This document shows, in pieces, positions 35,102 through 56,869 of a DNA stretch of 64,000 nucleotides. Below the pieces are notes generated by a model. That model did no database searches. It was not told the DNA's origin and saw only the letters and a list, made by a program, of their open reading frames with translations. Location of the stretch: the NCBI GenBank assembly GCA_019359235.1, contig JAHHHT010000034.1, forward strand, positions 1-64,000. The letters run 5' to 3'. Both the position numbers and the translations under genes were made by a program. The first letter of the stretch is position 1, and each line of letters opens with the position of its first letter. The DNA is from Oscillatoria princeps RMCB-10. Lineage in GTDB: Bacteria; Cyanobacteriota; Cyanobacteriia; Cyanobacteriales; Oscillatoriaceae.

Positions 35102-35719
35102 ATGAAGCTAAATAGGTTTGGCCGTCTGCAACGTCTTCTATTGCTAGCGGGGGCAAGTCTAATCGCGCTAGTTGCCCTGGGATATCATCCCACCCCAGTC
35201 AAAGCCCAAGACAGTCAGATCAACCAGACGGCTACCGGCAGCTGGCTAGCTGCTTCCTTTCCCGTGGAAAACTTTCAAGAATACAGCTCTCCCTATGGCC
35301 CCCGAGGGGAAGGGGAGTTTCACTACGGCCTGGACATTGCCGCTCCCCAAGGAAGTTACATCCGCAACTGGTGGGCCGGTGAGGTGGTGGAAGTGATTGA
35401 CGATGACCGGTGCGGCACCGGCTTGGTGATAGCATCCGGGAAATGGGAGCACGTCTACTGCCACATGGAAGGGCAAGTCGGGCAGGCCAATGGCCGCAAT
35501 TATCTGATTGACCGCGAGGGTGGCATTATAATTTGGCAAAACGAACAGCTGAGCGCCGGCGTCCGGATTGGTCGCGTGGGCATGAGTGGCCGCACCAGTG
35601 GCCCTCACCTTCACTGGGGCCTGAGGTACGCCGAAAACTGGATCGACCCCGGCACCGTTCTGCGAGCGATGTACGGCGAACAAACTGCCGCGCTCTCCAG
35701 GCGGCTTGACGGACAGTAG
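35102..35719 (+). CDS. Exported M23 peptidase (LytM-type endopeptidase)
   Basis: 205 residues from ATG 35102, nine bases after GAGGAG; a GTG at 35093 is too close to the ribosome site. The signal peptide spans LLLLAGASLIALVALGYHPT to VKAQ. The M23 domain has its zinc ligands in HYGLDIAAP (H-x-x-x-D) and GPHLHWGLRY (H-x-H). It should cut peptidoglycan cross-links or act in cell-wall remodelling in the periplasm. It has a strong promoter of its own and no operon partners. Confidence 0.9.
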   Translation: MKLNRFGRLQRLLLLAGASLIALVALGYHPTPVKAQDSQINQTATGSWLAASFPVENFQEYSSPYGPRGEGEFHYGLDIAAPQGSYIRNWWAGEVVEVIDDDRCGTGLVIASGKWEHVYCHMEGQVGQANGRNYLIDREGGIIIWQNEQLSAGVRIGRVGMSGRTSGPHLHWGLRYAENWIDPGTVLRAMYGEQTAALSRRLDGQ

Positions 35720-35913
35720 AACTGAGGACTTTGGCAAGTCTTCGATTAAAAATCCAGGTTAGTGCCCCTGAAAAAAACCCGGATGGGGAGTGCCCAGAAA
35801 CCAGGTTTCGCCGAAGTTACCTGGTTTCTGAGGATGGCACCGGCAAGTCCCGCCCCTGCGCGTGAAACCCGCTTTCTTCGATTGGAGTGCCGGCCCACTG
35901 CTCGTTAATCCCG

Positions 35914-37890
35914 CTAGAAGTTGGATGCTGTCTGGCGTTCCGGCAGCTGGCTGCACTCGGCGACAATTTGCCGGAACTGTTCGCCCTCAATGGTTTCCCT
36001 GTCCAGGAGCAGCTCCACAAGCCGGTCGATCAGGACGCGGTTTTCGCCGATGATTCGGCGAGCTTGCTGGTAGCACTCAACGGCGAGCGCCCGAACTTGG
36101 TGGTCGATTTTGGCAGCCACCTGTTCGGAAACCTCAGAGCGAGGCGTCCAGTCGCGCCCCAAAAAGACTTCATTGCTGCCGCTTTCGAGGGCCACCGGCC
36201 CCAACTCAGACATGCCGTAGCGCGTCACCATCTCCCGCGCCAAATCCGCCACCACCCGGATGTCGTTGCTGGCACCCACCGTCACCTCGTCATGGCCAAA
36301 CACCTCTTCCTCTGCAGCCCTGCCGCCCAAGGCAATGGTAATCCTGTCTCTCAGCCAAGCCCGGCTGTAGAGGCCGCTATCCACCATCTCTTCATTAAAC
36401 ACCTGCTGGGCAAAGCCGCCGATCCCTCCGGAACGGGGAATAATGCTGACTTTATTCAGGGGGTCAGAATTTTTCAGCAACGTCATCAGCAGCGCGTGCC
36501 CCACCTCGTGGTAAGCAATCAGCCGCTTTTTCTTGCTGTCTAGCAGTGGCGTCAGAGTCAGCCCCACCGTCACCCGGTCGATGGCGTCGTCAATTTCTAG
36601 CGGGCCAATCGCCTCTTTGCGCCGGCGTGCCGTCAAAATCGCCGCTTCGTTGAGCAGGTTGGCCAAATCCGCCCCGGAAAACCCGGGAGTCCGCCGCGCT
36701 ATCGCCTCCAGCGAGACTTCTGGCGACAGCTTCTTGTTGCGAGCGTGCACCTGCAAAATCCCCAGCCGCCCGTTGTAACCGGGCAGATCCACCGTCACCT
36801 GCCGGTCGAACCGGCCCGGGCGCAGCAAGGCGGAATCCAGCACGTCCGGGCGGTTGGTGGCGGCAATAATAATGATGCCGGTGTTGCCCTCAAAACCGTC
36901 CATCTCGGTGAGGAGCTGGTTGAGCGTTTGCTCTCGCTCGTCGTTCCCGCCGCCAATCCCAACACCCCGCTGCCTTCCCACGGCGTCAATCTCGTCGATG
37001 AACACAATGCAGGGGGCGTTCTCTTTCGCTTTTTTGAACAAGTCCCGCACCCGCGAGGCTCCCACGCCCACGAACATCTCCACGAATTCCGACCCCGAGA
37101 TGCTGAAGAAGGGCACGCCGGCCTCACCGGCAATCGCTTTGGCCAGCAGGGTCTTGCCGGTTCCCGGCGGGCCCACCAGCAGCACCCCCTTGGGAATCTT
37201 GGCACCAACCGCTGTGAAGCGTTCCGGCTTTTTCAAGAAGGTGACGACTTCCTGGAGCTCTTCTTTGGCCTCTTCAATGCCGGCCACATCGTTGAACAGG
37301 ACGCCGGTTTTGGCCTCCATCTGGAAGCGGGCTCGCGATTTGCCAAAGTTCATCGCTTGGCTGCCGGCTTGGCTAGACCGGCGCAAGATCATCGTCAGCC
37401 CCCCAATCAGCAGCACAATCAGCAGTAAATTCGCCACCAGCCCCACGGCGGCGCTGCGGTCAGCCGTCGGCTGGATATCCAGTTTAACCTCCTCTTCCCC
37501 CCCTCGGTTTTTTTGACCGATGGCTCGGTACACTTCGGGGTATTTGTCAAACAGAGACACCTCATACTCGGTTTGACCGGGCTCCTTTAACTTGACTCTG
37601 GCCACTTGCTGCGCTGGGTCAATCTCAACCTTGTAGACTTCACCGGCATCTATTTTCTGCAGCAGCTGGCTGTAGCTCATGCTTTTGCGCTCTGCCGCTC
37701 CCAGTGCCGGCACCGGCAGCAGCAGCCCCTGCAGCACCAGCCAGCCCGCAGCGAGATAGCCCAGGCACAGTGCCTGTTTCGAGCGCCTTTTTGAGCGCGG
37801 CTCAACAGTTCCCAGAGGCTCGCGCCTCCCCTGATTGGCCTCAGATCCCCTGTGCTGCCCCATCAGTGCTTTCATCCAGAAACCTTTCAT
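35914..37890 (-). CDS. ftsH: ATP-dependent zinc metalloprotease FtsH
   Basis: 658 residues. An N-terminal membrane segment ([20 protein letters not shown]) and a second one ([20 protein letters not shown]) flank a small lumenal/periplasmic domain. The AAA+ part has [37 protein letters not shown] and RPGRFDRQV. The zinc site is HEVGHAL. FtsH degrades damaged membrane proteins; cyanobacterial paralogues repair photosystem II (D1). The basic N-terminal extension of ~35 residues ([14 protein letters not shown]) is longer than in FtsH2/FtsH3. Which paralogue it represents cannot be fixed by eye. Confidence 0.96.
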
Positions 37891-38248
37891 CTCGCCTTGC
37901 CTTCTGCCTGCTGTCTTGTCCCACTCCTGCGCCGTAGCTTGTGGGCCAATTCCCCACCGGCAGGATTTGAGAACCTTTCCAACCCTAGTCTAACTTTCCC
38001 GATTCTCGCCCAGCGCGGTCGTGGCCAGTAACCTGGGCTGCCAAAAGCTGCCGGTTTTTATTTCGAGCAAGCCCACATCACTGAGAGCGTAGAAACCGGG
38101 TTTCTAGAAGAAACCCGGTTTCTGGCCCTTCTTTCCTTGACAGGGCATCCTTTCTTAAGCTAGATTAAATGCAGTCGGAATGACTTCGGTTTTTAACAAA
38201 AATTTAAGCAGTGCCCTCGCACTCAGCTCTTGCAGGAGAATCAATTTT
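37891..38248. other. Divergent spacer between ftsH and reductase gene
   Basis: 358 bases, no gene. It carries the palindrome AGAAACCGGGTTTCTAGAAG and its mirror at 38091-38123. A CAGGAG ribosome site at 38232-38237 serves ATG 38249. Confidence 0.6.
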
Positions 38249-38791
38249 ATGGTAAAGATAGTTGGAATTGCAGGCAGTTTGCGGTCTGGCTCCTACAGCA
38301 TGCTGGCATTGCGCCAAGCGGCGCGGCGGGTGGAAGCGCTCGGTGCGGAGGTGGAAATACTGGATTTGCGAGAAATGAGATTGCCGTTTTGCACCGGCGA
38401 CAAGGAATATCCGGACTTTCCAGATGTCGAGCGGTTGCGCACAGCGGTGAAAGAAGCGGACGGGCTGATATTGGCCACCCCAGAGTACCACGGCAGCGTC
38501 AGCGGCGTCCTGAAAAACGCCCTGGACTTGATGAGTTTTGACGAGCTGAGCGGGAAAGTTGCCGGTTTGATCAGCGTTTTAGGCGGACAGTCCAACAGCA
38601 ACGCCCTCAACGATTTGCGGGTTATTATGCGCTGGGTGCACGCCTGGGTGATCCCCGAACAAATCGGCATCGGACAAGCGTGGCAGGCATTTGGCCCTGA
38701 GGGCAAGATTTTGGATGAGAAACTGTCGCAGCGCTTCGACAAATTCGCCCAGAGTTTGGTGGACAGCACTCGCAAAATCCGAGGCGTGTAA
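38249..38791 (+). CDS. NADPH-dependent FMN reductase family protein
   Basis: 180 residues from ATG 38249 (MVKIVGIAGSLRSGSYSMLA), with CAGGAGAA upstream. The flavodoxin-like FMN-binding loop is GSLRSGSYS, followed by LATPEYHGSVSGVLKNALDL and ISVLGGQSNSNAL. This is the NADPH:FMN/quinone/azo reductase family (ArsH/ChrR-like). It could supply reduced flavin to the halogenase-like enzyme 4-6 kb away, but it is on the opposite strand and this link is speculative. Otherwise it may defend against quinones or metals. Confidence 0.88.
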   Translation: MVKIVGIAGSLRSGSYSMLALRQAARRVEALGAEVEILDLREMRLPFCTGDKEYPDFPDVERLRTAVKEADGLILATPEYHGSVSGVLKNALDLMSFDELSGKVAGLISVLGGQSNSNALNDLRVIMRWVHAWVIPEQIGIGQAWQAFGPEGKILDEKLSQRFDKFAQSLVDSTRKIRGV

Positions 38792-39020
38792 CGCTTCCCC
38801 TCGTTCCCAGGCAGAGCCTGGGAACGCCCGCACTCGGAAGTTCCCGCCTCCTTTGCCTTCGCTGACGACCAAGACATGCTGAAGCAGGGTGGGTCAGCTA
38901 TTGGGAAATCTCTCACCCTAAACCGCACACTCCTAGCGCAGACGCACCCTATAACTGTCAACTTTGCTAAGTCGAACCCAAATCTGGGACGTTCGATGTG
39001 ATATAAGGGAATGACTTCAA

Positions 39021-39371
39021 TCAATCCAGCGTCACAAAAATAGACCTGCGTGGCCGATTGTTTACTGTTCGAGTTTTATGGCCCCGTCCAGTTGTATCTT
39101 CAACTAGAAGAATATCTCCCCCCTGAAAGCGGCGCTTTTCTCCGCTGGCCACCTCAATCTCAACCTGCCCGTCCAATAAAATAATGAATTGTCTTTGCGG
39201 TGCCGTATGCCAATCGTAATCGTAGTACGCATCGTTTTCTCGGAAGATAATACTCGTTACCGGATAGCGCTGCGATAACTTGCCTATTTGACCCGCATCT
39301 TCTAGTTCTATTTCAATGTATTCAAAATGAGACTCTCCATCTGAGCCGGTATAAACACGAGTAATCAGCAT
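39021..39371 (-). CDS. Small cupin-domain protein
   Basis: 116 residues, a single cupin barrel. The conserved stretches are WHTAPQRQFIILLDGQVEIE, then GEKRRFQGGDILLVEDTTGR and GHKTRTV. Metal ligands typical of cupins are only partly kept (H in DWHTAP; Q where a second H is usual; H in GRGHKT). It is last in the minus-strand run that starts with the sugar-phosphate cyclase, separated from the antiporter gene by 280 bases. Cupins can be isomerases, dioxygenases or binding proteins; here it may finish or bind the cluster product. Confidence 0.75.
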   Translation of the reverse strand: MLITRVYTGSDGESHFEYIEIELEDAGQIGKLSQRYPVTSIIFRENDAYYDYDWHTAPQRQFIILLDGQVEIEVASGEKRRFQGGDILLVEDTTGRGHKTRTVNNRPRRSIFVTLD

Positions 39372-39651
39372 AATTTCAGTAATTTGATGCAGCGATGGTT
39401 CGGTGAAGCGGGAGTGCTGAACAAGTAATTATTTCGGCCTTTTATCTCGCGCTCCAGGGCGAGTTCCATAAGATCGCCTCATTACTTATGCAGGACTACC
39501 ATTTAAAGAATTAATCTACATTTGTAGGGCGCAAACATGAGAGGATTCTCATTTAACTTATATTCTCAGATGTATCAGTTTTATAAGCCTTGCGGGCACT
39601 GGCTTTCCTCAAATCAAAAGCCTGCTGTTACAGTGCCCACTTAGACCCCTC

Positions 39652-40926
39652 TCAATAATTGCTGTCCGGCAATAAGAGAGCAACCAGGGGCGATGCCATT
39701 AAGGTAGTAACGATTGCCATTATTACCATAATAGTAAATAGGGTCGGCGTAATAACGCCTTGCTCTAATCCGATATTGAGGATGATTAATTCCATCAAGC
39801 CCCGCGAGTTCATCAGTGCGCCGATAGTTGCCGACTCGCGCCAATTTTCCCCCGCCCACCGGGCTGCCAGCATGCAAGCCAAGCCTTTCCCGAGAATAGC
39901 AATTGCCACGATAACTGCTGTAATCGCCCACAATTGTGGCGTATTGACTAGCCCGATCTGCGTATTCAATCCGGAGAAAACGAAAAATACCGGCAGCAAC
40001 AGGGAAATAGTGAGAGACTCAATTTTTTCGCGAATTCCATCGACAAACTCGCCGCGCGGCATCGCCGTCCCCAAGATAAACGCGCCGAATACTGCGTAAA
40101 TGCCTATAGCATCAGTAAACCACGCGCACAGCATCAAAACCATCAAGACTAAGATCAGGGTTTGTACCGTCACGCCGTCATCGCGCTTGGTCAGGTGAGT
40201 GAAGACAGTCAGTGCCGGTCGCCCGACGAATATCACAAACAGCAAGTAGCCAATTCCACCCCCAATCGCCAAGGCTGCAATACTGCCTGAATTGTGAATG
40301 CTCGCCAGAACAATTGCCAGCAAACACCAGGCACTGGCATCGTCTATACTTCCAGCCGCCAGCGCCAGAGTTCCGAAGGTGGTTTTGGCGATGTCGCGTT
40401 CGTAGAGCATCCGCGCTAGCATGGGAAAGGCAGTAATTGACATGGACGCGCCCAGATAAAGCGCTGCAGCCCACGGTTTAACTCCTGGTGTGAATAGTTC
40501 CCCTTTGTCGTATAATAATACAGCGGCGATCGCCCCCAGCGTGAAGGGCGCTAAAATGCCTGCGGACGAGACTAGCACGGCACTTTTTAGCCGCTTCTTT
40601 ATTAGGTCGGTATTAAATTCGAGGCCGATTAAAAACATATAAATCACCAGCCCGATTTGACTGATGGCAAATAAAATCGACATGGAGGGGTGGGGAATTT
40701 TGGTGGCAGCATCGAGTGCGATAGGAGCCTTTGGAAACAGCCACTGTTGCCAATCTTGCGCGAGCAGGCCCAACATTGAAGGCCCCAACATCACGCCAGC
40801 AATCATTTCGCACACAACATCGGTTTGCCCCAGATAGCGCCGACCAATAATCGTTACGACCCGACAAGTAGCCAAAATGACTGTCAGTTGCAGCAATAGC
40901 TTAAGAACTAGCTCAAAGTTGGACAT
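39652..40926 (-). CDS. Cation/H+ antiporter (CPA2, NapA/KefB-like)
   Basis: 424 residues from ATG 40926; a longer frame reaching into the MFS gene is rejected. Twelve or so membrane helices: LVLKLLLQLTVILATCRVV, GVMLGPSMLGLLAQDWQQW, ISQIGLVIYMFLIGLEFNTD (the L-x-G-x-E-x-x motif) and GSIDDASAWCLLAIVLAS with the paired acidic residues DD that bind cation/proton. No RCK domain follows. Starts 26 bases after the MFS gene and is probably in its operon. Antiporters of this family occur in several antibiotic clusters, where they aid export or self-protection; here that is inference. Confidence 0.9.
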   Translation of the reverse strand: MSNFELVLKLLLQLTVILATCRVVTIIGRRYLGQTDVVCEMIAGVMLGPSMLGLLAQDWQQWLFPKAPIALDAATKIPHPSMSILFAISQIGLVIYMFLIGLEFNTDLIKKRLKSAVLVSSAGILAPFTLGAIAAVLLYDKGELFTPGVKPWAAALYLGASMSITAFPMLARMLYERDIAKTTFGTLALAAGSIDDASAWCLLAIVLASIHNSGSIAALAIGGGIGYLLFVIFVGRPALTVFTHLTKRDDGVTVQTLILVLMVLMLCAWFTDAIGIYAVFGAFILGTAMPRGEFVDGIREKIESLTISLLLPVFFVFSGLNTQIGLVNTPQLWAITAVIVAIAILGKGLACMLAARWAGENWRESATIGALMNSRGLMELIILNIGLEQGVITPTLFTIMVIMAIVTTLMASPLVALLLPDSNY

Positions 40927-40952
40927 ATTTGTGTGGCTTGCCTTGTTTTGGG

Positions 40953-42164
40953 TTATAATTCTATTGTTTGTCGCGTCCCTTTGAGGAAAGTTGTAAAGGC
41001 AATCCCCAACATTAATATAGCTAACGTGCAGACCCCACTCCACTGCCAGTAACTCCAGCCGTAAGCACCCAGGAAGGCTCCCAAAGCGCCACCTACAAAG
41101 TAGAAGGTGATGAAGAGTGCATTTAGCCGGCTGTGAAACTCCAACGGCAAATTATAAATGCGGGCTTGGTTTGAAACCAGTGTCGTTTGCACGCCCAAAT
41201 CTAGTAAGATAACTCCGGCTATCAATCCAGAAATCTGATGTCCGAAGCACCAAAACACTAGGAATGCCAGCGTGGTTGTGGCCAGTCCCAATCCAACAGT
41301 TCGTTTCGGGCTTGTTTTGTCTGCCAACTTACCCACGAAATTTGCTGCCGCGATGCCCGCCACACCGACCAATCCAAACAAGCCCGCGACTTCACTGCCG
41401 TACTGGTAAGGAGGCTGCGTCAGCAAAAAGGCGAGTGTACTCCAAAAAGCGCTGAAGGCACCAAATGACATGGCTCCAATCAGTGACGTTTCACGCAGTA
41501 CGGATTGCACGCGAATGATCTGAAGCAACGATGCCATTAAGCGAGGATAGGACATTCGCAGGGATGGATGACTCTTAGGGATGGTCTTTACAATTGCCAC
41601 TGTTAGAAGAATCATCAGTCCGCTTGCTAGCCAGTAGATTGCCTGCCAGCCTAGACTCGCTCCAACGAAGCCACTGACGGTTCGAGCTAGAAGAATCCCT
41701 ACCAGCAAACCACTCATCACACTGCCTACGACCCTGCCTCGCTCCTGGGGTTTTGCTAAATTGGCAGCAAATGGAACAATGAGTTGAGGCGTAATTGTGG
41801 TGATGCCGAGCACCAAACTTGCACCCCCTAGCCAAGTGAGATTAGGTGAGATTGCAACCGCTGCTAATGCGATCGCCGTTAGCCCCAACATGGTTATAAT
41901 CAATCGCCGTCGTTCTAGCAAATCACCCAACGGTACGAGGAGGAAAATTCCTATGGCATAACCAATCTGAGTCAGCGTAGGAATTAAGCCAGTTGCGTGT
42001 GCGGGGGCGTGAAAACTTTGGGCAATCGTCGCTAACAGGGGTTGGTTGTAATAGACATTAGCAGCGGCGGCTCCACTGGTAATTGCCATCATCCAGATGG
42101 TATGAGGTTGCAAAGAGGAGTGAGCTATCTCAGTTGCGTCAAATTCCGGGCGCTCTTGATTCAT
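40953..42164 (-). CDS. MFS transporter (drug/H+ exporter type)
   Basis: 403 residues, 12 transmembrane helices. Motifs: AAANVYYNQPLLATIAQSF (near-invariant VYYNQP of this subgroup), LVPLGDLLERRRLI (G-D-x-x-x-R-R-R loop), RGRVVGSVMSGLLVGILLAR, and GLVGVAGIAAANFVGKLADK repeating the loop in the second half. Likely exports a small molecule in exchange for protons. Its start is 28 bases from the stop of the halogenase-like gene, so the two are co-transcribed. Probable exporter of the cluster product. Confidence 0.88.
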   Translation of the reverse strand: MNQERPEFDATEIAHSSLQPHTIWMMAITSGAAAANVYYNQPLLATIAQSFHAPAHATGLIPTLTQIGYAIGIFLLVPLGDLLERRRLIITMLGLTAIALAAVAISPNLTWLGGASLVLGITTITPQLIVPFAANLAKPQERGRVVGSVMSGLLVGILLARTVSGFVGASLGWQAIYWLASGLMILLTVAIVKTIPKSHPSLRMSYPRLMASLLQIIRVQSVLRETSLIGAMSFGAFSAFWSTLAFLLTQPPYQYGSEVAGLFGLVGVAGIAAANFVGKLADKTSPKRTVGLGLATTTLAFLVFWCFGHQISGLIAGVILLDLGVQTTLVSNQARIYNLPLEFHSRLNALFITFYFVGGALGAFLGAYGWSYWQWSGVCTLAILMLGIAFTTFLKGTRQTIEL

Positions 42165-42192
42165 CAGTGGCCTTCAGATAAAAGTCTAGTGT

Positions 42193-43938
42193 TTAGGATT
42201 TTTTGACTAAATCCCCGGTTTTAGCTAAAATTGGTTCAGGAATTTGGAAATAACTGTGTAGCGTTTCCATAACTCGACGCAAATCGCGAGGCTTTGATTC
42301 GGGCTTAAACAATCCTTCCCGCTCCCAATTGTCAGGTTCTAAACTAATAGCACAGGCATTTATCCACAGTGGGGTTGGCAATTTCGCTCGCATTTTTGGC
42401 ATGGTATCAGCCACGGCCAATAGGAATATCGCTTGAGCCAATTCTTCACAAATTTCTAGACAAGTCAGCCCATCCTGCATTAGCGATTCCTCACTTTTGT
42501 TCAAGGTGAGATTCAGCGATCGCACCTCTATTAAAAAAGGGAGCTTCCAATAATCTATAAACTCAAACGAAACTTGGCGCGTGGACTTAGCTGCCCAATC
42601 CAAAAATAACTGCTCCATCCGAAAGCTCAGTTGTGAAAACCGCTCCCAAATCAAACTATTCTGAAGCCGGTCAATTCCATCTATGCCTAAAGATCCATAG
42701 TTTAGGAACAAGCCGACATTCATTGATAATAATGACGCTACATGCCAGATGTATTTGGCCGCCATTACAGTTGGATTGGCGAAACAAAAATAAAAATTGT
42801 GAAGCTTGTCACTCGCCCCATCAGATGTTTTTAAGTAAGAGCGATTAGCCTTGTCTACTGTTTCCTGACTCATCTTGCCTTCAAAGTCAAGCTCAATCAA
42901 ATGGGTGAGTGAGGTATTGGCGTAAGCAATTAAATCCATACCAGGGGAAAACAAAGGATCGGGAAATGTAGCAGCTTCACCTGTACAACCCCAGCGATTA
43001 ATAGAGAATACCTGAGCAGATGAATAGCTGTACTTTGGCATCTTCTTAAAATCTTCCGGCTGTTTTCCTTTTAGGTGTAATGCCAACATGGGTTCGTGTT
43101 TTTCTAACCATTGGTATGCCAGTTCGTAGGTATGATATCCTTTAAACGGATGAACTTCCTCGTTGGTGACAATCCCAATACTGGTGTGTCCCGAAGCTAG
43201 GGCAATTAGCCAGATCCAGTATCCTTTTCCACACAAATGATTTGTGGAGTAATAACGGATATTGTTAGGAACGCGCTCGTGCCACTGCGTCTGACTACTC
43301 GGTACTAGGCTACTTACGTCAACGATTTCACCTATGCGAAACCACACAGCACTAAATCTTTGATCATTTGGTTCCGCTAAACCCAGCTTTTTTTGAAGAA
43401 ACCGGCGGCGTCCCATAGCGTCAATTACCCAATGAGCTTTACAGGTATTGATTTCTTTATTATCTCCCTGGCTGTAAAAAATTGCATGCTCTTTAGGATT
43501 ATCTGAGAGCTGGACATCTCGGACAAAACAGTTTTCGATCAGTTCTACACCGCTCTCCACATTCAACTTTCGCAAATCGTTTTCCAACCTACCCCGATCT
43601 ATTTGATAAGTGTTCCGCAGGGGATCGAATTCTGACAGCCCAATTTCCGAACGTTCGTGAAATTGACCTTGTGAGTTCCCTAAAAAATATCGAAGGCCGA
43701 GTTTAATTAAATGATTATTTTCCAAATAATCTTTTAGCTGGAGAACGCTATCCAAATAGTAAGCTGCTCGGTAAAGCGTTGACTCTCCAACTTTGAAGGT
43801 TGCCTCTGGCAGTGGAGCCACCAGTCGGTCAAACAATACAATTGAAATGTCAGGCATTTTTAGCTTTAACTGTCGCGCTAGAGTCAATCCCGCTACACCT
43901 GCCCCACAAATGGCCACATCATATGTATTTGGTCTCAT
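42193..43938 (-). CDS. Flavin-dependent halogenase-like monooxygenase
   Basis: 581 residues from ATG 43938, after GGCAGGAT. FAD-binding GAGVAGL is at 12-18 and KVGES at 49-53, with a lysine in LIKLGLRYF (K79), the position of the halogenase catalytic Lys. GYWIWLIAL (about 239-247) corresponds to the halogenase W-x-W-x-I-P box with Pro replaced by Ala. GEAATFPDPLFSPGMDLIAY is the second FAD motif. The family includes tryptophan/phenol halogenases and related non-halogenating oxygenases. The extended C-terminal helical region (~200 residues) is specific. It would use free FADH2 from a separate reductase. Halogenation versus oxygenation cannot be decided by eye. Confidence 0.75.
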   Translation of the reverse strand: MRPNTYDVAICGAGVAGLTLARQLKLKMPDISIVLFDRLVAPLPEATFKVGESTLYRAAYYLDSVLQLKDYLENNHLIKLGLRYFLGNSQGQFHERSEIGLSEFDPLRNTYQIDRGRLENDLRKLNVESGVELIENCFVRDVQLSDNPKEHAIFYSQGDNKEINTCKAHWVIDAMGRRRFLQKKLGLAEPNDQRFSAVWFRIGEIVDVSSLVPSSQTQWHERVPNNIRYYSTNHLCGKGYWIWLIALASGHTSIGIVTNEEVHPFKGYHTYELAYQWLEKHEPMLALHLKGKQPEDFKKMPKYSYSSAQVFSINRWGCTGEAATFPDPLFSPGMDLIAYANTSLTHLIELDFEGKMSQETVDKANRSYLKTSDGASDKLHNFYFCFANPTVMAAKYIWHVASLLSMNVGLFLNYGSLGIDGIDRLQNSLIWERFSQLSFRMEQLFLDWAAKSTRQVSFEFIDYWKLPFLIEVRSLNLTLNKSEESLMQDGLTCLEICEELAQAIFLLAVADTMPKMRAKLPTPLWINACAISLEPDNWEREGLFKPESKPRDLRRVMETLHSYFQIPEPILAKTGDLVKKS

Positions 43939-44317
43939 ATCCTGCCCTCTTTTGTTTTTTTTGCAAAGTTTAAACAAATTATTCTCACACTTCAATGTTA
44001 CCATACGGTGCAAAAAAGTTCCAGATTACACTCATATATTTCAAGGCTCCTGATTGGGCTCTAAAAAAAATTGATCGCAAGGGAACAAGCTATTTGAGTA
44101 AACGATAGCGGCTCTGCCGCCCTCTTATTCTAAGACCCTCCTTTTTGCAGCTATAACTGCTTGGGTTTGAGGTGAAAATTATGCGGAAATGGCCCCAGGG
44201 GCTGTCGCCTAAACACTAGGTAAGGCAAGGGTTTTCATCTGGAATCATACTGAAAATAGTGTGGGGGAAGTGGTAGAACCACGATAGCTACGCTGGCAGG
44301 CGCAACATTCAACGCTT
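43939..44317. other. Intergenic region inside the cluster
   Basis: 379 bases between the dioxygenase and halogenase-like genes. No gene. AT-rich start, then GCGGCTCTGCCGCC (about 44108-44121) as a possible hairpin. Could contain a second promoter for the downstream half of the cluster. Confidence 0.4.
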
Positions 44318-45178
44318 TTAACATTTCGGCTTTAGAACAAAGTCGTAATGGGCAGTGTGAAACGGATTCTTGACATTATGCTGCGCAGCTTCCTCAGGCG
44401 AGTCGTGTTTTTGAAGATTGATTATTAGAGATTCTCTTACCGCAAAAACGACATCTGATTTAATGTAGGGATCTCCCTTGAAGAAGAGCTGGGTAACTAA
44501 ATGTTCGTAGCCATCTGCCGACACTTTAAAATGAATATGCGCTGCGTGCCAAGTGTGCCGGTCTAGAGCTACGAGCATCTGTCCAACTGGTCCGGCACTG
44601 GGAAATCGGTAGTTAGCCGGTTTTAAGGTCTGAAACTGGTATCTGCCCTGTTCGTCTGTATATAGCTGACCCCGGAAATTGTAATCTGGCTGCGTGTCAT
44701 CTACGCAATCGTATAGCCCGTTTGGAGCGGTTTGCCAAAGCTCAATTAGCGCCCCCGCAATTGGTTTCCCTTCTGGGGCCATTACCTGACCAGAGAAAAG
44801 TACCTGTTCGCCCTCTTCTTCACATCCACTGTATATCTTGAATGGCGAAGTTAACAGTGGCGCTTCGTCACGGTAATAAGGCCCCGTGAAATTACTTTCA
44901 GTGATCCCTTCAAGAGGCGGATGGTTCATGATATTTACCACCTTGGAAAGCCCAATTGCGTCTGAGAGCATTATAAATTCACTCAGACCTATTTTTCCCA
45001 CCGCAGCTAGAAACTCAAGGCCCTTCATCCATTCATCTTCTGTCAATTTCACCTCGCTCGCAAAAGTATGCAGGTGTTGAATGAGTTTGGCCATAATTTC
45101 GTTGAGTCGGGGATTAGGGCTTTTGGACAACAGATTGACTGCTGTTTCGGTGACGTTTTTCAAATTCTGATCCTGCAT
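44318..45178 (-). CDS. Intradiol ring-cleavage dioxygenase (hydroxyquinol/catechol type)
   Basis: 286 residues. The N-terminal helical dimer domain (about 1-95) ends in EGITESNFTGPYYRDEAPLL, the opening of the catalytic domain in catechol- and hydroxyquinol-1,2-dioxygenases. The four Fe(III) ligands are present: Y156 (NGLYDC), Y190 (ANYRFP), H214 and H216 (AHIHFKVS). PDYNFRGQLYTDEQGRYQFQ is also typical. The usual Arg in WRPAH is replaced by His-Ala (WHAAH), which may change the substrate. It cleaves 1,2-dihydroxy aromatic rings to muconate-type acids. Aromatic degradation genes (muconate cycloisomerase, maleylacetate reductase) are absent nearby, so a biosynthetic use is likely. Confidence 0.9.
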   Translation of the reverse strand: MQDQNLKNVTETAVNLLSKSPNPRLNEIMAKLIQHLHTFASEVKLTEDEWMKGLEFLAAVGKIGLSEFIMLSDAIGLSKVVNIMNHPPLEGITESNFTGPYYRDEAPLLTSPFKIYSGCEEEGEQVLFSGQVMAPEGKPIAGALIELWQTAPNGLYDCVDDTQPDYNFRGQLYTDEQGRYQFQTLKPANYRFPSAGPVGQMLVALDRHTWHAAHIHFKVSADGYEHLVTQLFFKGDPYIKSDVVFAVRESLIINLQKHDSPEEAAQHNVKNPFHTAHYDFVLKPKC

Positions 45179-45400
45179 ATAACCTCAACTATTTTCAAAA
45201 ATGGTAGCGCGAATTTAAGCATAATTTTGCTGGCTATCCCAACTCGCTTACTAAGCTGGCCGATCGCGATCTTATAGGTTCAAGCCCGCAATCGACCGCA
45301 AGACTTGAAATTAGCCTCGGTTACATTTTAACACGGTCAAGCTAAAAAAAGCAACCCCCACTTCCCATATAAATCTTACATTTTTTTCCGTCCTGTCTCG

Positions 45401-46270
45401 CTAACCCGTCAGCAAAGAGAGGCACTTGGCCAAATAATCTCTAACCGTTTTGAGAGCCTCTTCTAAGGGCATACTTTTGATTTCCTGATTCCAGGGCTCT
45501 ATGGCCACCGGCCCTCGGTAGCCTTTATTATACAGTGCTTTGAGAAACTCTTCAACCTTTGTCACGCCCGTCGTGAGTGGCAATTCCCTTTCAAACTCCG
45601 GGATGGTAAAAATATCATAACCGGCCAGCCCATCATTTAATTCCAGATACAATATATATTCTACATCCAGGTGATGGATATCCAGCACACTCGCCCCACT
45701 ATTTTGCCAGTGGTGAACGTCAAACTTAAAGCCCCCATATCCATACAGCCCCGCACTAGCAATCAAGGCGCGGGTTCCATCTATGGTATGGATAAAGTCA
45801 TATTTTGAGTTCCGCCGAGTTTCCGTAGGCCCGATAAACTCAAAACCTATTTTTATCTCATACTTGTCCAAGATATATTTTAGCTCGCGCAAGCGATTGC
45901 TGGTTTGAATGAACCGATCGTTAAAGTTAAGGTCATGAGAAAAGGGCGGGATATAGCAGAGAGTTAAGTGACAGCCGATTTCGCTGGCTTGTTTGGCCTG
46001 CAATTCAAATACAGGCAGGCTTTCTTCAAATTCTTTTTGGCTGTCAAATAACTTCACAGGGAAGCCAAAAGCTACAGGTTTTAAATTCAGCTGTCCCAGC
46101 AATTGCTTGCATTCATAAGTGCTTAACCTATTGGAAAGGCTCAAGTCAATATTAACGCCCTCGAACTGGTACTTGTGAGCCAAGTCACAAATCTGTTTAA
46201 AGTCACTCACCACATGACCGATATTCCCGCAGTGAGTGATGTCATCGGTTATATTCAAAACGGAATACAT
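45401..46270 (-). CDS. TIM-barrel sugar isomerase/dehydratase-like enzyme (AP endonuclease 2 superfamily)
   Basis: 289 residues, one xylose-isomerase-like barrel. Candidate metal ligands: E144 (IGFEFIGP), D184 with H186/H187 (FKFDVHHWQN), E210 (LYLELND) and E258 (VAIEPWN). Relatives include inosose dehydratase (IolE), IolI, hydroxypyruvate isomerase and 3-dehydroshikimate dehydratase. It sits between the sugar-phosphate cyclase and the dioxygenase, so it may epimerise or dehydrate a cyclitol ketone. It starts MYSVLNITDD near 46270. The exact reaction is unknown. Confidence 0.82.
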   Translation of the reverse strand: MYSVLNITDDITHCGNIGHVVSDFKQICDLAHKYQFEGVNIDLSLSNRLSTYECKQLLGQLNLKPVAFGFPVKLFDSQKEFEESLPVFELQAKQASEIGCHLTLCYIPPFSHDLNFNDRFIQTSNRLRELKYILDKYEIKIGFEFIGPTETRRNSKYDFIHTIDGTRALIASAGLYGYGGFKFDVHHWQNSGASVLDIHHLDVEYILYLELNDGLAGYDIFTIPEFERELPLTTGVTKVEEFLKALYNKGYRGPVAIEPWNQEIKSMPLEEALKTVRDYLAKCLSLLTG

Positions 46271-46390
46271 GACAATTATACCTCTGACTTAGATACGGCT
46301 TGTTTGAAAGCTGCGACTGCACTGTTCCAGCTAAACTGAGTTGGCCAGGGTTGGGTTAGATAAGATAAGCCTCTTCAATGGCCCCATCCT

Positions 46391-47569
46391 CTAGGCTACC
46401 CTATCGGAAAGGTTAACACTCGTTTTTTGTCGCTGGCGGGCGATGAAATTATCAAGAACCTTTCTCACCACCTGCTGGTCAACTGTCACAAGAAAATCTC
46501 CTTCCGGATTGTAGCACTGACCGATTCTTTCCAAAAGGATAAAGCGCAGTTCTCTTCCAGTCTTTTTATTGTCCGCAATCATCGCATTCATGATTTTTTG
46601 GGTGGTTAGGTCTTCAGGGAACGGATTGTTAAACCCAAGTTTGTCCTCAATCAGGTAGTAATGCCGGTCAACATCTTCTTGAGAGAGCAATCCCAGTTCC
46701 TTGCCGAGTTCTGCAGCAATCTTCATTCCGAAGGATACGGATTCTCCATGAGACAATTTACCTTTTTCAAGCCATTCAATGGCGTGGCCGAAAGTGTGCC
46801 CGTATTCTAGGACAATCCCATAGCCTTTCTCGCTCGGATCTTTCTTGAGGATTTCTAACTTGGACAAAATGATTTTGTGGACTAGCTGGTATAACGCCTC
46901 GTCCGAGAACTTGACTTGAGGATTGAGGGCTTCTTCTAAGTAATCCAAAAAGGTTGCGTCCGAAATAAACCCATTCTTAATCCCTTCAATGATACCACTT
47001 CGGCGAGAAGACGGGGGTTCGGTTTGCAGATATTTGGTATCCGCCCAGATAAATATGGGGCTGTGATAGAGGCCAAAGTGATTTTTTCCAGTAGCCCCAT
47101 TGACAGCTTGCTTATTGCTGAGCGTGCTGTCGGTTTGCCCTGTCATACTGGTGGGGATCTCGACAAAACGGATTCCCCGGTAAATTAGCCCAGCAGCTAG
47201 CCCCACAATATTTCCAACTGTTCCGCCGCCAAAGGCCAATAAGATTGATTTTTTAGAGGCATTTTTGGCGATGAGGTTTTCGCACACTTCCTCAAGTATG
47301 CCGAAAGATTTACATTTCTCGCCATTCGGGACAAATTCAAGCTGGCAAGGAAACTTTTCATTAAGCTCCTCATACAGCTCTTGGCCGTACAGGCTGAGTA
47401 AATGGGGCTCCGTAAAGAAAAATAGCCGATCAAAAGCATATTCTTCTAGTGTTTTAACGAAAGATTTGTGAGTGTCATAGCCCAAATAGAAGGGACTGGG
47501 TTTTTCCAGCTCGGTACTGAGTTGAATGACTTTTCCCGGTTCCCACTGGAATGGCTGGCTGTATTTCAT
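46391..47569 (-). CDS. Sugar-phosphate cyclase, 2-deoxy-scyllo-inosose synthase-like
   Basis: 392 residues from ATG 47569; a GTG 69 bases upstream lacks support. It is a dehydroquinate-synthase-fold enzyme: NAD loop FGGGTVGN (113-120), Zn ligands E195 (SGIIEGIKNG), H258 (EYGHTFGHAIE) and H274 (LSHGESVSFGM). The discriminating loop reads SNKQAVNGATGKNHFGLYHS (151-170). As I recall them, KQAVN plus GKN is the pattern of 2-deoxy-scyllo-inosose synthases (BtrC), while AroB has GKTGINHPxGKN and EEVS/DDGS have other forms. Predicted reaction: glucose-6-phosphate (or a related hexose phosphate) to a cyclitol ketone. It is first in the cluster and should be its committing enzyme. Confidence 0.82.
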   Translation of the reverse strand: MKYSQPFQWEPGKVIQLSTELEKPSPFYLGYDTHKSFVKTLEEYAFDRLFFFTEPHLLSLYGQELYEELNEKFPCQLEFVPNGEKCKSFGILEEVCENLIAKNASKKSILLAFGGGTVGNIVGLAAGLIYRGIRFVEIPTSMTGQTDSTLSNKQAVNGATGKNHFGLYHSPIFIWADTKYLQTEPPSSRRSGIIEGIKNGFISDATFLDYLEEALNPQVKFSDEALYQLVHKIILSKLEILKKDPSEKGYGIVLEYGHTFGHAIEWLEKGKLSHGESVSFGMKIAAELGKELGLLSQEDVDRHYYLIEDKLGFNNPFPEDLTTQKIMNAMIADNKKTGRELRFILLERIGQCYNPEGDFLVTVDQQVVRKVLDNFIARQRQKTSVNLSDRVA

Positions 47570-48110
47570 ATTTTGCTGTTTTTGTTGGAGTCCGCAGGAG
47601 TGTTTACGCCGGGTGCTTAAGCTGGGACAAGCGGTCACTTAACTGCCGGCACTGCCGGAGTATTGGCCTTTGGTAAGAAGCGCGCTTTTTACCGTAAAGC
47701 GGAGATTCATGACATTTTTGCCCGCCGGCACAGGTGTCCCGTTTCAAGCAGGCACCTTTTACTGGATTTCGCACTCTATGTTTAACAAATTAGCACAGCT
47801 TATAAATTCTTCAAGCTCTTTTACTTGAGATAAGCGTCCAAAAAATGTGACTTGTTTTCACCTTTGAGACGGCTACTCAGTCACAAAAGAGGTTCTCTTT
47901 TGACAAAATGCGCTTAATATGCTGGGGTAAATAATTGTAGTGATTGCGACAATTTTTTGGGCAGCGCCTCCCAGAAAACGCCCGGACAAACCGCCTCAAA
48001 CCCGCTTCCAGACGGCAACTCATACTTTGAGCGTTTTGTCAAGACACTAAATGTGACTTGTTTGGGAGCAGTGTGACTGGGGATGAATAAACTGCGGCAA
48101 TTTGTATAGC
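47570..48110 (-). promoter_or_regulatory. Upstream region of the cyclase cluster with 14-bp direct repeats
   Basis: AATGTGACTTGTTT occurs twice, at 47844-47857 and 48050-48063. TTTGACAAAATGCGC (47897-47911) is matched in inverted form by GCGTTTTGTCAA (48031-48042). No gene lies in these 541 bases. The arrangement suggests binding sites of a regulator, though no regulator gene is in the cluster. A defined -10/-35 pair was not found. Confidence 0.45.
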
Positions 48111-48449
48111 ACTAGCCACATTGGTTAGGACATTTGAGACATTGAGGGCAGGCGAGACGCCCCCTACGGATGCTTCCCTGACGCGCTCCGCCTGTCCCGA
48201 TGTCCATTACTGAGCTGTCCATTGCTATAGGGGCGGGTTGACCCGAGATATTTCTGGCACAACTCAGGGTATTCACAAACCCGCCCCCACCCCCGCCCAA
48301 AACCCAGCTACCAAACCAGGGCATTCCCCGTTTTTTAAGGGGGGTTGAAGGGGATCTGGGGGTTAGGGGGGGTTTCCAAATAAGTAGGGTGCGCTCTCTC
48401 AAGGGAGGGAACGCACCCTAGTTATAGGATGGTGGTGGTGATGCCCGCG
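48111..48449. other. Repeat-filled spacer
   Basis: Contains CAGGCGAGACGCC-type repeat (about 48150-48165), TTTTTTAAGGGGGGTTGAAG (48330-48349; family also at 22276-22300 and inside the LpxB-related gene) and a GGGTGCG/CGCACCC hairpin near 48385-48420. No gene seen. Confidence 0.65.
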
Positions 48450-49640
48450 CTAGTGGTGGTGGTGGTGCCCGTCGTGATGGTGATGGTGGTGGTGTCCGTC
48501 GTCGTGGTGGTGAGAGTGAGCCGCCGGCAGAGCCATTTGAACCTTGACAGATAGCGCCTCTTGTGATAAAAGCGCTTCGATATGCGGCACAGCCCACTCA
48601 GCCGCCATCAGGAGAAAATCGGGACACTCGTTGACGCAAGGCATCTGCACATAAGTCACATCAGGACGCCGGCGCTGCAAAGCGTGAATGATATGCTCCA
48701 CATCCAGCAGGGTTTCGTGATTTTCCGTCGCAAAGCCAATCGGCATCATCACCACAGCCTGAGCGCCCAAGTCAGTCAGATTGCTCGCCGCTTGCTCCGC
48801 ACTGGGTTGAGTCCACTCAATCAGAGGCGTGTCGTGGTTGAGCCAGCCCACAGAAATCAGCGGATAGCGGTGGATGAGGCGCTCCCGCACCAATTCGTAG
48901 AGCGCCTGACTTTCGTCAATCCCAGAGGTAAAACCCTTGGCCTTGTGGGGACAGCCGTGGTTCATCAGCACGATGCCGATTTGGGAGGGGAGGTACTGAC
49001 CGGCAAGTTTAGAGGCAATAACCTCCTCAACCAGCTGCGCCATCAAATCGATATAAGCCGGCTGGTTGTAGAAAGACGGGATATAGCGCATTCCCTTAAC
49101 CCAGTGTTCCGAGCCATCAGCCATTTCGGCGAGAGCTTTGTTAACCTGCTCGACGGCAATACCGCTGGTGAAGATGGAATCTACCACTAAAAGAGGGTAA
49201 ATCAGCAGCTTTTTGAAACCTTGGGATTTGATTTCGGCGAGAACTTGTTTGGGGAGGAAGGGGGCGCAGAAGTTAAAAGCTTTGAACACCCGCACAGACT
49301 CGCCCCAGCGGTGTTGCAGCTCGTGTTCAATGCCGTCTCGCTGCTTTTCAAAAATGGCATTGTGGGGGGAAATGAAATCGTGATGGGTGTGTCCCCACTC
49401 GTGCCGGTCAAAAATCGCCAGCAGCCGGGCTAGGGGGGGATAGATCCAAGTGGGAACCGGCGCAAACTTAGCCGTGAGAAGATTTAAAGCTTGTTCATTA
49501 TAGTTGGCGAAGTCTTCGTAGCTTTCGACCTCGCCGTAACCCATCAGCAAGACAGCAACACGGTTGTTGCCGGCATCTGAGAGAGGGGGGAGATGGTCTT
49601 GCAGTTTTTCAGGGGTGGCTACCACGTCAGGTTTCTCCAT
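48450..49640 (-). CDS. Ferrochelatase-like protein with histidine-rich C-terminus
   Basis: 396 residues. The core shows the chelatase (type II) fold: RVAVLLMGYGEVESYEDFAN, KKLLIYPLLVVDSIFTSGIA and IGIVLMNHGCPHKAKGF with the metal-binding His. The C-terminal tail is HSHHHDDGHHHHHHHDGHHH and two more His. It differs from the housekeeping HemH (no LHCB-like tail, different N-terminus). The His tail suggests handling of Ni, Co or Zn, like His-tailed CbiX proteins. Beyond the TAG stop the same frame continues RGHHHHHP, so the tail was once longer. Monocistronic. Confidence 0.75.
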   Translation of the reverse strand: MEKPDVVATPEKLQDHLPPLSDAGNNRVAVLLMGYGEVESYEDFANYNEQALNLLTAKFAPVPTWIYPPLARLLAIFDRHEWGHTHHDFISPHNAIFEKQRDGIEHELQHRWGESVRVFKAFNFCAPFLPKQVLAEIKSQGFKKLLIYPLLVVDSIFTSGIAVEQVNKALAEMADGSEHWVKGMRYIPSFYNQPAYIDLMAQLVEEVIASKLAGQYLPSQIGIVLMNHGCPHKAKGFTSGIDESQALYELVRERLIHRYPLISVGWLNHDTPLIEWTQPSAEQAASNLTDLGAQAVVMMPIGFATENHETLLDVEHIIHALQRRRPDVTYVQMPCVNECPDFLLMAAEWAVPHIEALLSQEALSVKVQMALPAAHSHHHDDGHHHHHHHDGHHHHH

Positions 49641-49762
49641 TGCATGGGTGTGAGGGAGCCTGGGGCTGGGGCATAGCCTGGCGGGGTGTGGAGATGCCGC
49701 CAGCGCAAGGCGTCCGTTCTTCTATATTAGCATCCGGGAGGGGGGGATAGGGAGGTTTCGCT

Positions 49763-51244
49763 TCAGGAGAATGTCACGATTCGATCGCGACCTTCGTTTT
49801 TAGCGCGGTAAAGCGCGGCGTCAGCGGCTTGGATCGCCGCCGCGCCGGTGAAACCGTGGTCAGGGAAAATGGCCACCCCCAGGGAGAGCGTCACCGGCCC
49901 TAGAGACATAGAGCGGTACTGGATATTCAGCGATTTCACGCCGGCGCGGAGTTGCTCGGCTCGCTGCAGGGTAATCTCCAAAGACGCCTCCGGCAAAATC
50001 AGCAGGAACTCCTCACCACCGTAGCGACAAACAATATCGGATTGGCGAACCTGTTTTTGCAAAAACAGGCTCAGTGCCCGCAACACTTCATCCCCGGCAT
50101 CATGGCCAAACTTGTCGTTAAAATGCTTAAAGTAATCCACGTCGAGCATGATGATTCCCAGAGTTTTCTGCCCGCGAGAAGCTCGGTACACCTCCCGCAG
50201 CAGGGCATCTTCCAGATAGCGCCGGTTGAACAAACCCGTCAGCGGGTCGCGAATGCTTTGGTTGTGCAAAGTTTCGCGCAATTTTAAGTTAGCCAGAGCC
50301 AGGGCAATCTGTTCCGAAACAGTGCCAGCCAGCAGCTGTTTAGCCTCTGTTAAGCGGTTATTTTCTGAGGAACTCAAATACAGCACCCCCAGGGCGTCCC
50401 CCTGAGCCATCAGGGGGACGCAGCAATATTCAGCCGGGAGCGGGTTTTGGTGTAAATGTTTGCAGAGCAAACCTTGCTGCGCGCTCTCAACTGAATGCAG
50501 CTGTCCCCGCCGCAGCGCCCAACATTCATTGGGTGTGAAAAGTCGCTCGGTAGTTACGGGTGCGCCCCAGGTTACCACCGCCTCAACCTGTTTTCTAGAG
50601 GCGCTCAGCATGAAGAGTCCGCCGTTGAGATTGGGGAACAGCAATTTCACGCCTTGGGCAATCACAGTATAGGCTTCCCTTACAGTCAGACAAGCTTGCA
50701 GTAAATCGCTCATTTGGCCTAGCTGGGTGAGATCGGAATTGCGCTGTTCTAGTTCATTTGTTTTCTGGTAGAGTGATTCCTGCGCTTGCTTGCGTTCCTC
50801 GATTTCTGCTAGCGCCCGATCCCGCATCGCCTTATAGTCTTGGATGCGGTTTGTCAGGTACGTGACGTCCTCAATAACCAAAAGTGCGTAGAAACCAAGG
50901 CCGGTTAACCGGCGCACAGCGGTGACAGTGGTGTGCTGGATGCGCAACTGTTCGTTGGGCAGGCGTGAGGGAATCAGGTGCTTGTGAAGCTGGGAAGAAA
51001 AGATGGTAGGCGGTCCGCCTTCAAATATTTGTTTCAGGCGACTGGAATACTTCGGCTGCAGTAAGTGAGGGAAATAATCCCCAACGCTCGCCCCCAGAAT
51101 TTTGCTTTTGGGGATTTGGGTCCAGTCTTCCAGGCATTGGTTCCAAAAAACCACGATAAAATCTTCCCGGAAAACGCACACTCCCACCGGCATGCGGTCG
51201 AGAATGCCAAACTTTTCCTCAACCCGTTCCAGCTCGTCCATCAT
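49763..51244 (-). CDS. PAS-GAF-GGDEF diguanylate cyclase
   Basis: 493 residues, cytoplasmic. A PAS-like domain (about 10-125, GILDRMPVGVCVFREDFIVV) is followed by a coiled coil (about 135-180), a GAF domain (about 185-325, LLQACLTVREAYTVIAQGVK) and GGDEF (about 335-493). The active motif RYGGEEF is intact, with an RxxD inhibition site just before it (RQSDIVCRY). It should make cyclic di-GMP with product feedback. Its ATG overlaps the CheC-like stop by four bases (ATGA), the last gene of a three-gene operon. The GAF-GGDEF half is closely related to those at 53145 and 57008. Confidence 0.93.
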   Translation of the reverse strand: MMDELERVEEKFGILDRMPVGVCVFREDFIVVFWNQCLEDWTQIPKSKILGASVGDYFPHLLQPKYSSRLKQIFEGGPPTIFSSQLHKHLIPSRLPNEQLRIQHTTVTAVRRLTGLGFYALLVIEDVTYLTNRIQDYKAMRDRALAEIEERKQAQESLYQKTNELEQRNSDLTQLGQMSDLLQACLTVREAYTVIAQGVKLLFPNLNGGLFMLSASRKQVEAVVTWGAPVTTERLFTPNECWALRRGQLHSVESAQQGLLCKHLHQNPLPAEYCCVPLMAQGDALGVLYLSSSENNRLTEAKQLLAGTVSEQIALALANLKLRETLHNQSIRDPLTGLFNRRYLEDALLREVYRASRGQKTLGIIMLDVDYFKHFNDKFGHDAGDEVLRALSLFLQKQVRQSDIVCRYGGEEFLLILPEASLEITLQRAEQLRAGVKSLNIQYRSMSLGPVTLSLGVAIFPDHGFTGAAAIQAADAALYRAKNEGRDRIVTFS

Positions 51245-56723: not shown

Positions 56724-56869
56724 CAAGGTTTAATCAAACGATCTATGCTGAGAGTTTCTTAATAAAAGGATGCCTCTGTTTGGTCTGCGGCAATACCTTT
56801 ACTGCCTTTTCCGTAAAGATTATTAAAGTTTCTAATGTTTTGCATATTATAGCGAGCTTTGCGCTACAA

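Follow-up and report, generated by a model that had tools for sequence, protein, structure and literature searches.

The 64,000-nucleotide stretch of Oscillatoria princeps RMCB-10 analysed here (contig JAHHHT010000034.1, positions 1 to 64,000; hereafter the window) contains a 9.6 kb island of seven genes (38830..48430), one of which encodes a sugar phosphate cyclase related to 2-deoxy-scyllo-inosose (DOI) synthases. DOI synthase is the entry point to the 2-deoxystreptamine antibiotics. Cyanobacterial kin of this enzyme recur with consistent partners, and these are quite different from the partners found in the antibiotic clusters. From the gene content and its recurrence, the island likely specifies a pathway based on DOI, to which a TIM barrel protein and an exporter are dedicated. 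Tentatively, and with somewhat less than even confidence, we propose a small biosynthetic island in which glucose-6-phosphate would be converted to DOI and then to an aromatic ring, which would be halogenated or oxidised and then opened before the product leaves the cell.

The cyclase is encoded on the minus strand at 46391..47569, within an open reading frame (ORF) spanning 46391-47638; the ATG at 47569 lies close to the start of the related proteins. It carries the Pfam domains DHQ_synthase and DHQS_C. Its best relative of solved structure is the DOI synthase 2D2X (190 bits; we take 2D2X and 2GRU to be BtrC), followed by a dehydroquinate synthase (DHQS) at 160 bits. On the aroB model TIGR01357 it scores 259.7 bits, under the cut-off of 305, and a separate, genuine AroB is present in the same genome on contig C46, scoring 399.6 bits. 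On TIGR04425, a model of AroB-related cyclases that presumably covers EboD, a point on which we are unsure, it scores 171.6 bits against a cut-off of 400.

We aligned 56 sugar phosphate cyclases, including 22 cyanobacterial relatives, 17 DHQS, 2-epi-5-epi-valiolone synthases (EEVS), desmethyl-4-deoxygadusol synthases (DDGS) and five DOI synthases, the last comprising the solved enzyme 2D2X, two so named by annotation and two placed by gene neighbourhood. Two duplicates (L006 and L020) and three partial sequences (L032, L034 and L111) were dropped before the tree was calculated. The 22 cyanobacterial sequences form one clade (support 100/100) lying outside the DHQS, EEVS and DDGS sequences, and group with the five DOI synthases (100/99). 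The branch of the cyanobacterial clade measures 1.88 changes per column, and the program gave a long-branch warning. A tree uniting them with the 17 DHQS is rejected (approximately unbiased test, p-AU 0.0035). One Listeria AroB falls outside the other DHQS, closer to the group of DOI synthases and cyanobacterial sequences (97/76). The alignment also reveals letters of DOI-synthase type in all 22 cyanobacterial sequences and the five DOI synthases that are not found in DHQS, EEVS or DDGS: GN for GD, KQA[VI]N for KTA[VI]N and similar, KN, EYGH for N[LFY]GH and DNK for DKK. The role of these letters in DOI synthases is in part our assumption.

The kinship of the cyclase with DOI synthases is well supported by these comparisons, as is, at the level of sequence, its predicted reaction, conversion of glucose-6-phosphate to DOI. 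A paralogue of AroB is rejected on the model score, the tree and the letters, and a cyclase of the TIGR04425 type on its score. A sequence-only reading of the window had proposed a DOI-synthase-like enzyme, to be abandoned if it fell firmly within AroB or EEVS clades. The phylogeny places it with the DOI synthases and outside AroB and EEVS/DDGS, and so that objection falls away.

The limits of the island emerge from related genomes in which its flanks are joined. Using the neighbouring ferrochelatase-like gene (48450-49640) as anchor, a gene found in six of seven relatives searched, we read five of these six by BLASTN of the flanks, two of the same genus (G386 and G387) and three of the same family (G388, G391 and G392). 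In all five a flavin mononucleotide (FMN) reductase gene (38180-38791 in the window) directly adjoins the ferrochelatase-like gene. In G386, window positions 35628-38829 match at 90.4% and 48430-49752 at 93.4%, with 56 bases between them; in G387 the gap between the two flank matches is 275 bases. Since the flanking genes are direct neighbours in five relatives, 38830-48430 is a 9.6 kb insertion with exactly seven genes, and that it is one insertion carrying all seven is well supported. Its GC content is 0.464 compared with 0.537 for the remaining window, and GC at third codon positions is 0.41-0.57 for the seven genes compared with 0.62-0.74 for four neighbours, in agreement with the earlier remark that the stretch is richer in AT than its surroundings. 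Loss of the island from five relatives is conceivable in principle; gain is favoured here, given how its base composition differs and how rarely the phylum has the cyclase.

The FMN reductase is rejected as an island member, as its gene is located beyond the insertion and relatives that lack the island have it too. A mobile element is likewise rejected, with no transposase or integrase among the seven proteins and no clear target duplication; the two ends have only an 8-bp word in common. A palindrome-like repeat, GTTCCCAGGCAGAGCCTGGGAAC (38803..38825, no strand assigned), abuts the left edge and is also present in the empty site of G386. The island had been described as bounded by repeat-filled spacers, and as worded this does not hold. 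Between 47560 and 48460 a repeat finder returned two direct hits, a 15-nt pair and a 14-nt pair, together with three inverted repeats, of which one is a hairpin beside the ferrochelatase-like gene. Between 38700 and 39660 it returned none, and no comparison of these counts with chance was made. At 48428-48512 a short tandem repeat extends into the ferrochelatase-like gene, where it includes a His-rich tail of the protein, and it varies among the relatives.

All seven ORFs lie on the minus strand, in the order previously proposed. The cyclase is followed by an IolI-like TIM barrel of the xylose-isomerase fold (45401..46270; Pfam AP_endonuc_2), an intradiol ring-cleavage dioxygenase (44318..45178; Pfam Dioxygenase_C and Dioxygenase_N) and a flavin-dependent halogenase-like enzyme (ORF 42193-44013, likely ATG at 43938, hence 42193..43938; Pfam Trp_halogenase at 36.6 bits, cut-off 21). 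Next come a predicted exporter of the major facilitator superfamily (MFS; 40953..42164; Pfam MFS_1), a CPA2-family cation/H+ antiporter (ORF 39652-41043, likely ATG at 40926, hence 39652..40926; Pfam Na_H_Exchanger, with the CPA2 model below its cut-off) and a small cupin-like protein within the insertion (39021..39371; Cupin_2 and Cupin_3, both below the Pfam cut-offs). The genes of the flavoenzyme, exporter and antiporter are separated by less than 30 bp, and gaps of 222 and about 379 bp flank that of the dioxygenase. GC is uneven within the island, at 0.43 for the flavoenzyme and 0.50 for the transporters. Scans for promoters and terminators gave scores below the means of shuffled sequence. 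Short ORFs, not scanned against families, are all that is present in the gaps before the cyclase, on either side of the cupin gene and from dioxygenase to flavoenzyme, a further point against a mobile element. The island showed no carrier-protein gene; searching all six frames with a loose pattern produced a single match, chance-like and directly preceded by an in-frame stop.

The cyclase is rare, present at E <= 1e-50 in three of 386 sampled cyanobacterial genomes, the source of the window included. Scanning the genomes of 84,980 species with two short peptide patterns, which reach close relatives only, gave 21 loci; the 20 genomes concerned all bear cyanobacterial titles, and many are metagenome-assembled. 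We read 24 loci from 22 genomes (the window, G245, L015-L035 and L111), which are not independent as several are from Okeania. Near the cyclase, 21 of the 24 have a member of either of two xylose-isomerase-fold families: F5, the family of the TIM barrel in the window, in seven and F3, which resembles IolO and ketose epimerases, in 14, with both together in none. In the three loci without such a partner (L020, L023 and L034) the sequence ends about 1 to 3 kb behind the cyclase. In every genome that has F5 (7/22 cyclase genomes) a cyclase gene is no more than 3 kb away, and F5 is absent at E <= 1e-30 from 291 other sampled cyanobacterial genomes. The TIM barrel is also absent at E <= 1e-8 from a plasmid collection. 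A short-chain dehydrogenase/reductase (SDR) gene (E <= 1e-20) accompanies F3 in 14/14 loci and F5 in 0/7. Relatives of the window exporter, 55-57% identical, are found in seven other cyclase loci, all of the F3 type, and at E <= 1e-60 in three of the 291 other cyanobacteria (best 48%). The co-occurrence of F5 and of the MFS relatives with the cyclase links these three genes.

The remaining genes are less constant. Two F5 loci (L016 and L017) have cyclase and TIM barrel alone; in two others, Moorena L019 and Microcoleaceae L111, a UbiG-type O-methyltransferase gene lies between them. A PIG3-like quinone oxidoreductase, below its model cut-off, is found in four of the 24 loci, as is cytochrome b561. 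The sequence-only reading had looked to co-occurrence elsewhere. The seven genes as a set are found in no other locus examined; the cyclase and TIM barrel do recur together (in the seven genomes above), as do the exporter's relatives with the cyclase. This partial recurrence of the core indicates that the cluster is not a random one, and equally that it is no conserved operon of seven genes, the latter being rejected as dioxygenase and flavoenzyme are found beside no other cyclase locus read. L111 (3700-6280), the second locus of the genome that contains L027, is a decayed copy, with truncated cyclase, methyltransferase and a TIM barrel gene with an internal stop.

The TIM barrel in the window is the putative partner of the cyclase, and a predicted isomerase or dehydratase of DOI. 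A profile of six F5 proteins finds 3U0H, which has no function in its name, and IolI (1I60; E 1e-7). IolI, which we take to be an inosose isomerase, would be the best F5 relative of known function among solved structures. Its metal ligands are presumably Glu142, Asp174, His200 and Glu246, and F5 keeps three of these four positions (Glu, Asp and Glu). Comparison of the F5 and F3 profiles, built from small alignments, gave a probability of 8.5% (E 0.0039), and thus the two families are not clearly kin beyond their fold.

For the dioxygenase, membership of the catechol/hydroxyquinol class is clear by sequence and the substrate less so. Among solved structures the five best relatives are PnpC, an intradiol enzyme of unspecified kind and three enzymes of hydroxyquinol type, which rank ahead of catechol and chlorocatechol enzymes. 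The two Tyr and two His that we take to be iron ligands are kept in the alignment. Relatives are found at E <= 1e-20 in three of 385 other genomes of the phylum sample (one full-length at 47%), and at E <= 1e-30 on 491 plasmid records, with Rhizobium and Agrobacterium in the lead. Three other cyclase genomes have a dioxygenase, at 42-44% in two and 35% over part of its length in the third. The methyltransferases of L019 and L111 score 137.5 and 132.4 bits on the UbiG model TIGR01983 (cut-off 102.95), and the three best solved relatives of that of L019 are of UbiG type. UbiG methylates catechol-type hydroxyls. The presence of a dioxygenase and a UbiG-type methyltransferase beside the same cyclase and TIM barrel hints at a catechol-like intermediate.

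The flavoenzyme has PltA and CmlS among its relatives. Its flavin adenine dinucleotide (FAD) motif is present as GAGVAG (GxGxxG), and FKVGES is invariant in eight sequences. Relatives 51-56% identical were found in seven cyanobacteria, three from 59 related genomes (52-56%) and four from the 385 others of the phylum sample. Six of the seven loci have genes of phenol or non-ribosomal peptide synthetase (NRPS) type. L065 encodes a 3-deoxy-D-arabino-heptulosonate 7-phosphate (DAHP) synthase, a chorismate-lyase-like protein, an AMP ligase, a condensation-carrier-thioesterase protein and an FAD_binding_3 protein; by eye L063 and L066 resemble it. A chorismate-lyase-like gene is present in L064, the clusters of L067 and L068 are of NRPS type, and L062 has no such cluster. 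These settings are consistent with phenolic substrates. Elsewhere, two or three adjacent flavin-halogenase-like genes of about 600 amino acids are found in L041, L043 and L044 (G411), in contig C231 of G097 and in L070 (G382).

We can now set out the proposed pathway. The cyclase would convert glucose-6-phosphate to DOI, the step well supported by sequence. The IolI-like protein may then move the ketone and/or eliminate water; loss of two waters from DOI (C6H10O5) gives the formula of a trihydroxybenzene (C6H6O3), and the product could be such a compound, for example hydroxyquinol. The flavoenzyme might chlorinate, or possibly oxidise, the free phenol, and the dioxygenase might cleave the ring of a catechol-type intermediate, either in forming the product or in self-protection. 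The product would be exported by the MFS protein, with the antiporter compensating ions or protons. The aromatization and all later steps, halogenation and ring opening included, are what we infer. Hansen and Frost are said to have converted DOI to 1,2,4-trihydroxybenzene in acid in 2002. A review describes acid dehydration of myo-inosose to 1,2,3,4-tetrahydroxybenzene (PMC11467972), and a chemical conversion of DOI to catechol is cited in another paper (PMC6170601).

Extended to all the loci, the proposal becomes a cyanobacterial cluster family that would convert glucose-6-phosphate via DOI to a hydroxyquinol-type phenol, using a DOI synthase and a xylose-isomerase-fold dehydratase/isomerase, bypassing the shikimate and polyketide routes; the phenol would be methylated, oxidised, chlorinated or cleaved according to species. 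In this general form we consider it rather unlikely. If the core does make an aromatic from DOI, biology would have a new way to phenols that parallels a conversion hitherto achieved by chemical means, and two proteins would be enough to test an enzymatic route from glucose to hydroxyquinol or catechol. Even with a cyclitol product, this would be an undescribed family of natural products.

A number of observations weigh against an aromatic, halogenated and ring-opened product. The dioxygenase and flavoenzyme are confined to the window among the cyclase loci read, and in the two other cyclase genomes where we read its setting the dioxygenase is not near the other island genes. The dioxygenase has His in place of the active-site Arg that precedes the HxH iron ligands (WHAAHIHF compared with WRPAHLHF), an Arg kept in PnpC (3N9T), 1TMX and three cyanobacterial homologues, which makes its activity uncertain. 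Its best NCBIfam models, all below cut-off, are those of chlorocatechol 1,2-dioxygenase (193.1 bits) and the catechol enzyme (190.1 bits). Nor is the resemblance to hydroxyquinol enzymes peculiar to it, since these five solved structures also head the list for a cyanobacterial homologue (L122) from a different setting. The flavoenzyme reads WIWLIA where seven aligned relatives have WxWxIP, thus losing the final Pro, and some of those relatives lie beside carrier-protein genes. Five of the seven F5 loci have no methyltransferase, and a D-glucose O-methyltransferase is also among the solved relatives of that of L019, so that this enzyme could act on a cyclitol. In the TIM barrel, the position of IolI His200 is Glu in 6/6 F5 sequences. 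The equivalent His of the ketose epimerases is Gln in all seven F3 sequences aligned, and loss of the same metal-binding His in both partners of the cyclase might reflect a chemistry on DOI that they have in common. Lastly, the other type of cluster, with cyclase, IolO-like F3 protein and SDR, is as compatible with a reduced cyclitol as with an aromatic.

Several of these points would be accommodated if the pathway were alicyclic throughout, a serious contender to which we give less than even credence. The TIM barrel would only epimerise or isomerise DOI, a deoxy-inosose or quercitol-like cyclitol would be exported, and the dioxygenase and flavoenzyme would be passengers or serve another substrate. 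The resemblance of the window TIM barrel to IolI and of F3 to ketose epimerases and IolO is in keeping with this, as are the SDR and MFS exporters of the F3 clusters, suited to reducing a cyclitol and exporting it, the two loci with cyclase and TIM barrel alone, and a cyclitol hydroxyl as possible target of the methyltransferase. Less easily explained in this way are the association of two distinct enzymes of catechol type, the dioxygenase and the UbiG-type methyltransferase, with the same cyclase and TIM barrel, and the quinone-oxidoreductase-like gene in four of the 24 loci.

It is unlikely that two unrelated halves have been joined, a DOI module (cyclase, TIM barrel and exporter) and a module for degradation or detoxification of outside phenols (dioxygenase, flavoenzyme, antiporter and cupin). 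The uneven GC and the larger gaps around the dioxygenase would agree with such a fusion, as would the relatives of the flavoenzyme in chorismate-lyase and NRPS-type clusters and those of the dioxygenase on plasmids. However, the dioxygenase and flavoenzyme sit between the TIM barrel and the exporter, both of which have relatives in cyclase loci, and all the genes lie on one strand within one insertion. Finally, the long cyanobacterial branch and its warning might reflect a new specificity for another sugar phosphate, with a product other than DOI, but every DOI-synthase-type letter compared is kept in all the cyanobacterial sequences and we think this improbable.

The proposed DOI pathway can be compared with known systems. 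With the 2-deoxystreptamine clusters (2D2X/2GRU) it shares the cyclase's best solved relative, its letters and its position in the tree; it differs in that the cyclase falls in a separate cyanobacterial clade and in lacking a StrS-type aminotransferase, both on the island and in the other cyclase pieces. Two StrS-type queries for a DOI aminotransferase had no match at E <= 1e-4 in the island or in 27 cyanobacterial pieces, and both matched all three control loci. No glycosyltransferase, radical SAM (S-adenosylmethionine) protein or PIG-L deacetylase is encoded among the seven genes, and tblastn found none in the 27 pieces; these queries matched their own source locus only, so their absence elsewhere is weak evidence. 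An aminoglycoside cluster is rejected on the gene content and the missing StrS-type aminotransferase, and the earlier statement that aminotransferase and glycosyltransferase are lacking is upheld for the seven genes by Pfam. The literature searched for such clusters, with most subscription journals outside its coverage, yielded no cyanobacterial DOI-synthase cluster. A 2020 review places aminoglycoside/aminocyclitol among the predicted classes of cyanobacterial cluster (PMC7761380), a class that may include loci of this kind.

The ebo operon also pairs a sugar phosphate cyclase, EboD, with a xylose-isomerase-like barrel, EboE, and a C7 sugar phosphate has been suggested as the EboD substrate (PMC5133447). 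DOI synthases use a C6 sugar phosphate, the island has no UbiA gene, and the cyclase falls far short of the TIGR04425 cut-off. With IolI (1I60), of myo-inositol catabolism, the window protein shares the TIM-barrel family, three metal-ligand positions and plausibly an inosose-like substrate; F5 differs in the Glu at His200 and in its DOI-synthase-like cyclase partner. The dioxygenase shares its iron-ligand Tyr and His with the hydroxyquinol 1,2-dioxygenases PnpC (3N9T) and 1TMX, which are among its best solved relatives, and differs in the replaced Arg and in a setting that is not a degradation operon. The flavoenzyme has the Trp_halogenase domain, FAD motif and WxWxI of the halogenases PltA and CmlS; it differs in lacking the Pro and in having no carrier-protein gene seen on the island.

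Cyclases of this superfamily were seen in other settings. On a plasmid of Streptomyces sp. NBC_00015 (L060:9950-12663) an MFS transporter gene comes after that of an annotated DOI synthase, and the annotation shows no aminotransferase for 10 kb around; this is possibly another non-aminoglycoside DOI pathway. On a plasmid of Streptomyces sp. NBC_00853 (L112:7989-14223) a DOI-synthase-like cyclase, annotated as hypothetical, lies beside a StrS-type aminotransferase, an amidinotransferase and a glucose-methanol-choline (GMC) oxidoreductase. In the genome of the window itself, contig C36 (L004/L012) has a cyclase of the DDGS/EEVS group that by eye overlaps an O-methyltransferase-like gene, probably mycosporine-type genes. 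The 13.1 kb contig C30 (L011) looks like contamination of the assembly: in the tree its AroB falls among those of proteobacteria, and by eye it carries PilM/PilQ-like secretin genes. Beyond the ferrochelatase-like gene, the minus strand of the window between 49763 and 59191 encodes three proteins (49763-51244, 53145-56726 and 57008-59191) with similar C-terminal parts that by eye are GGDEF-like.

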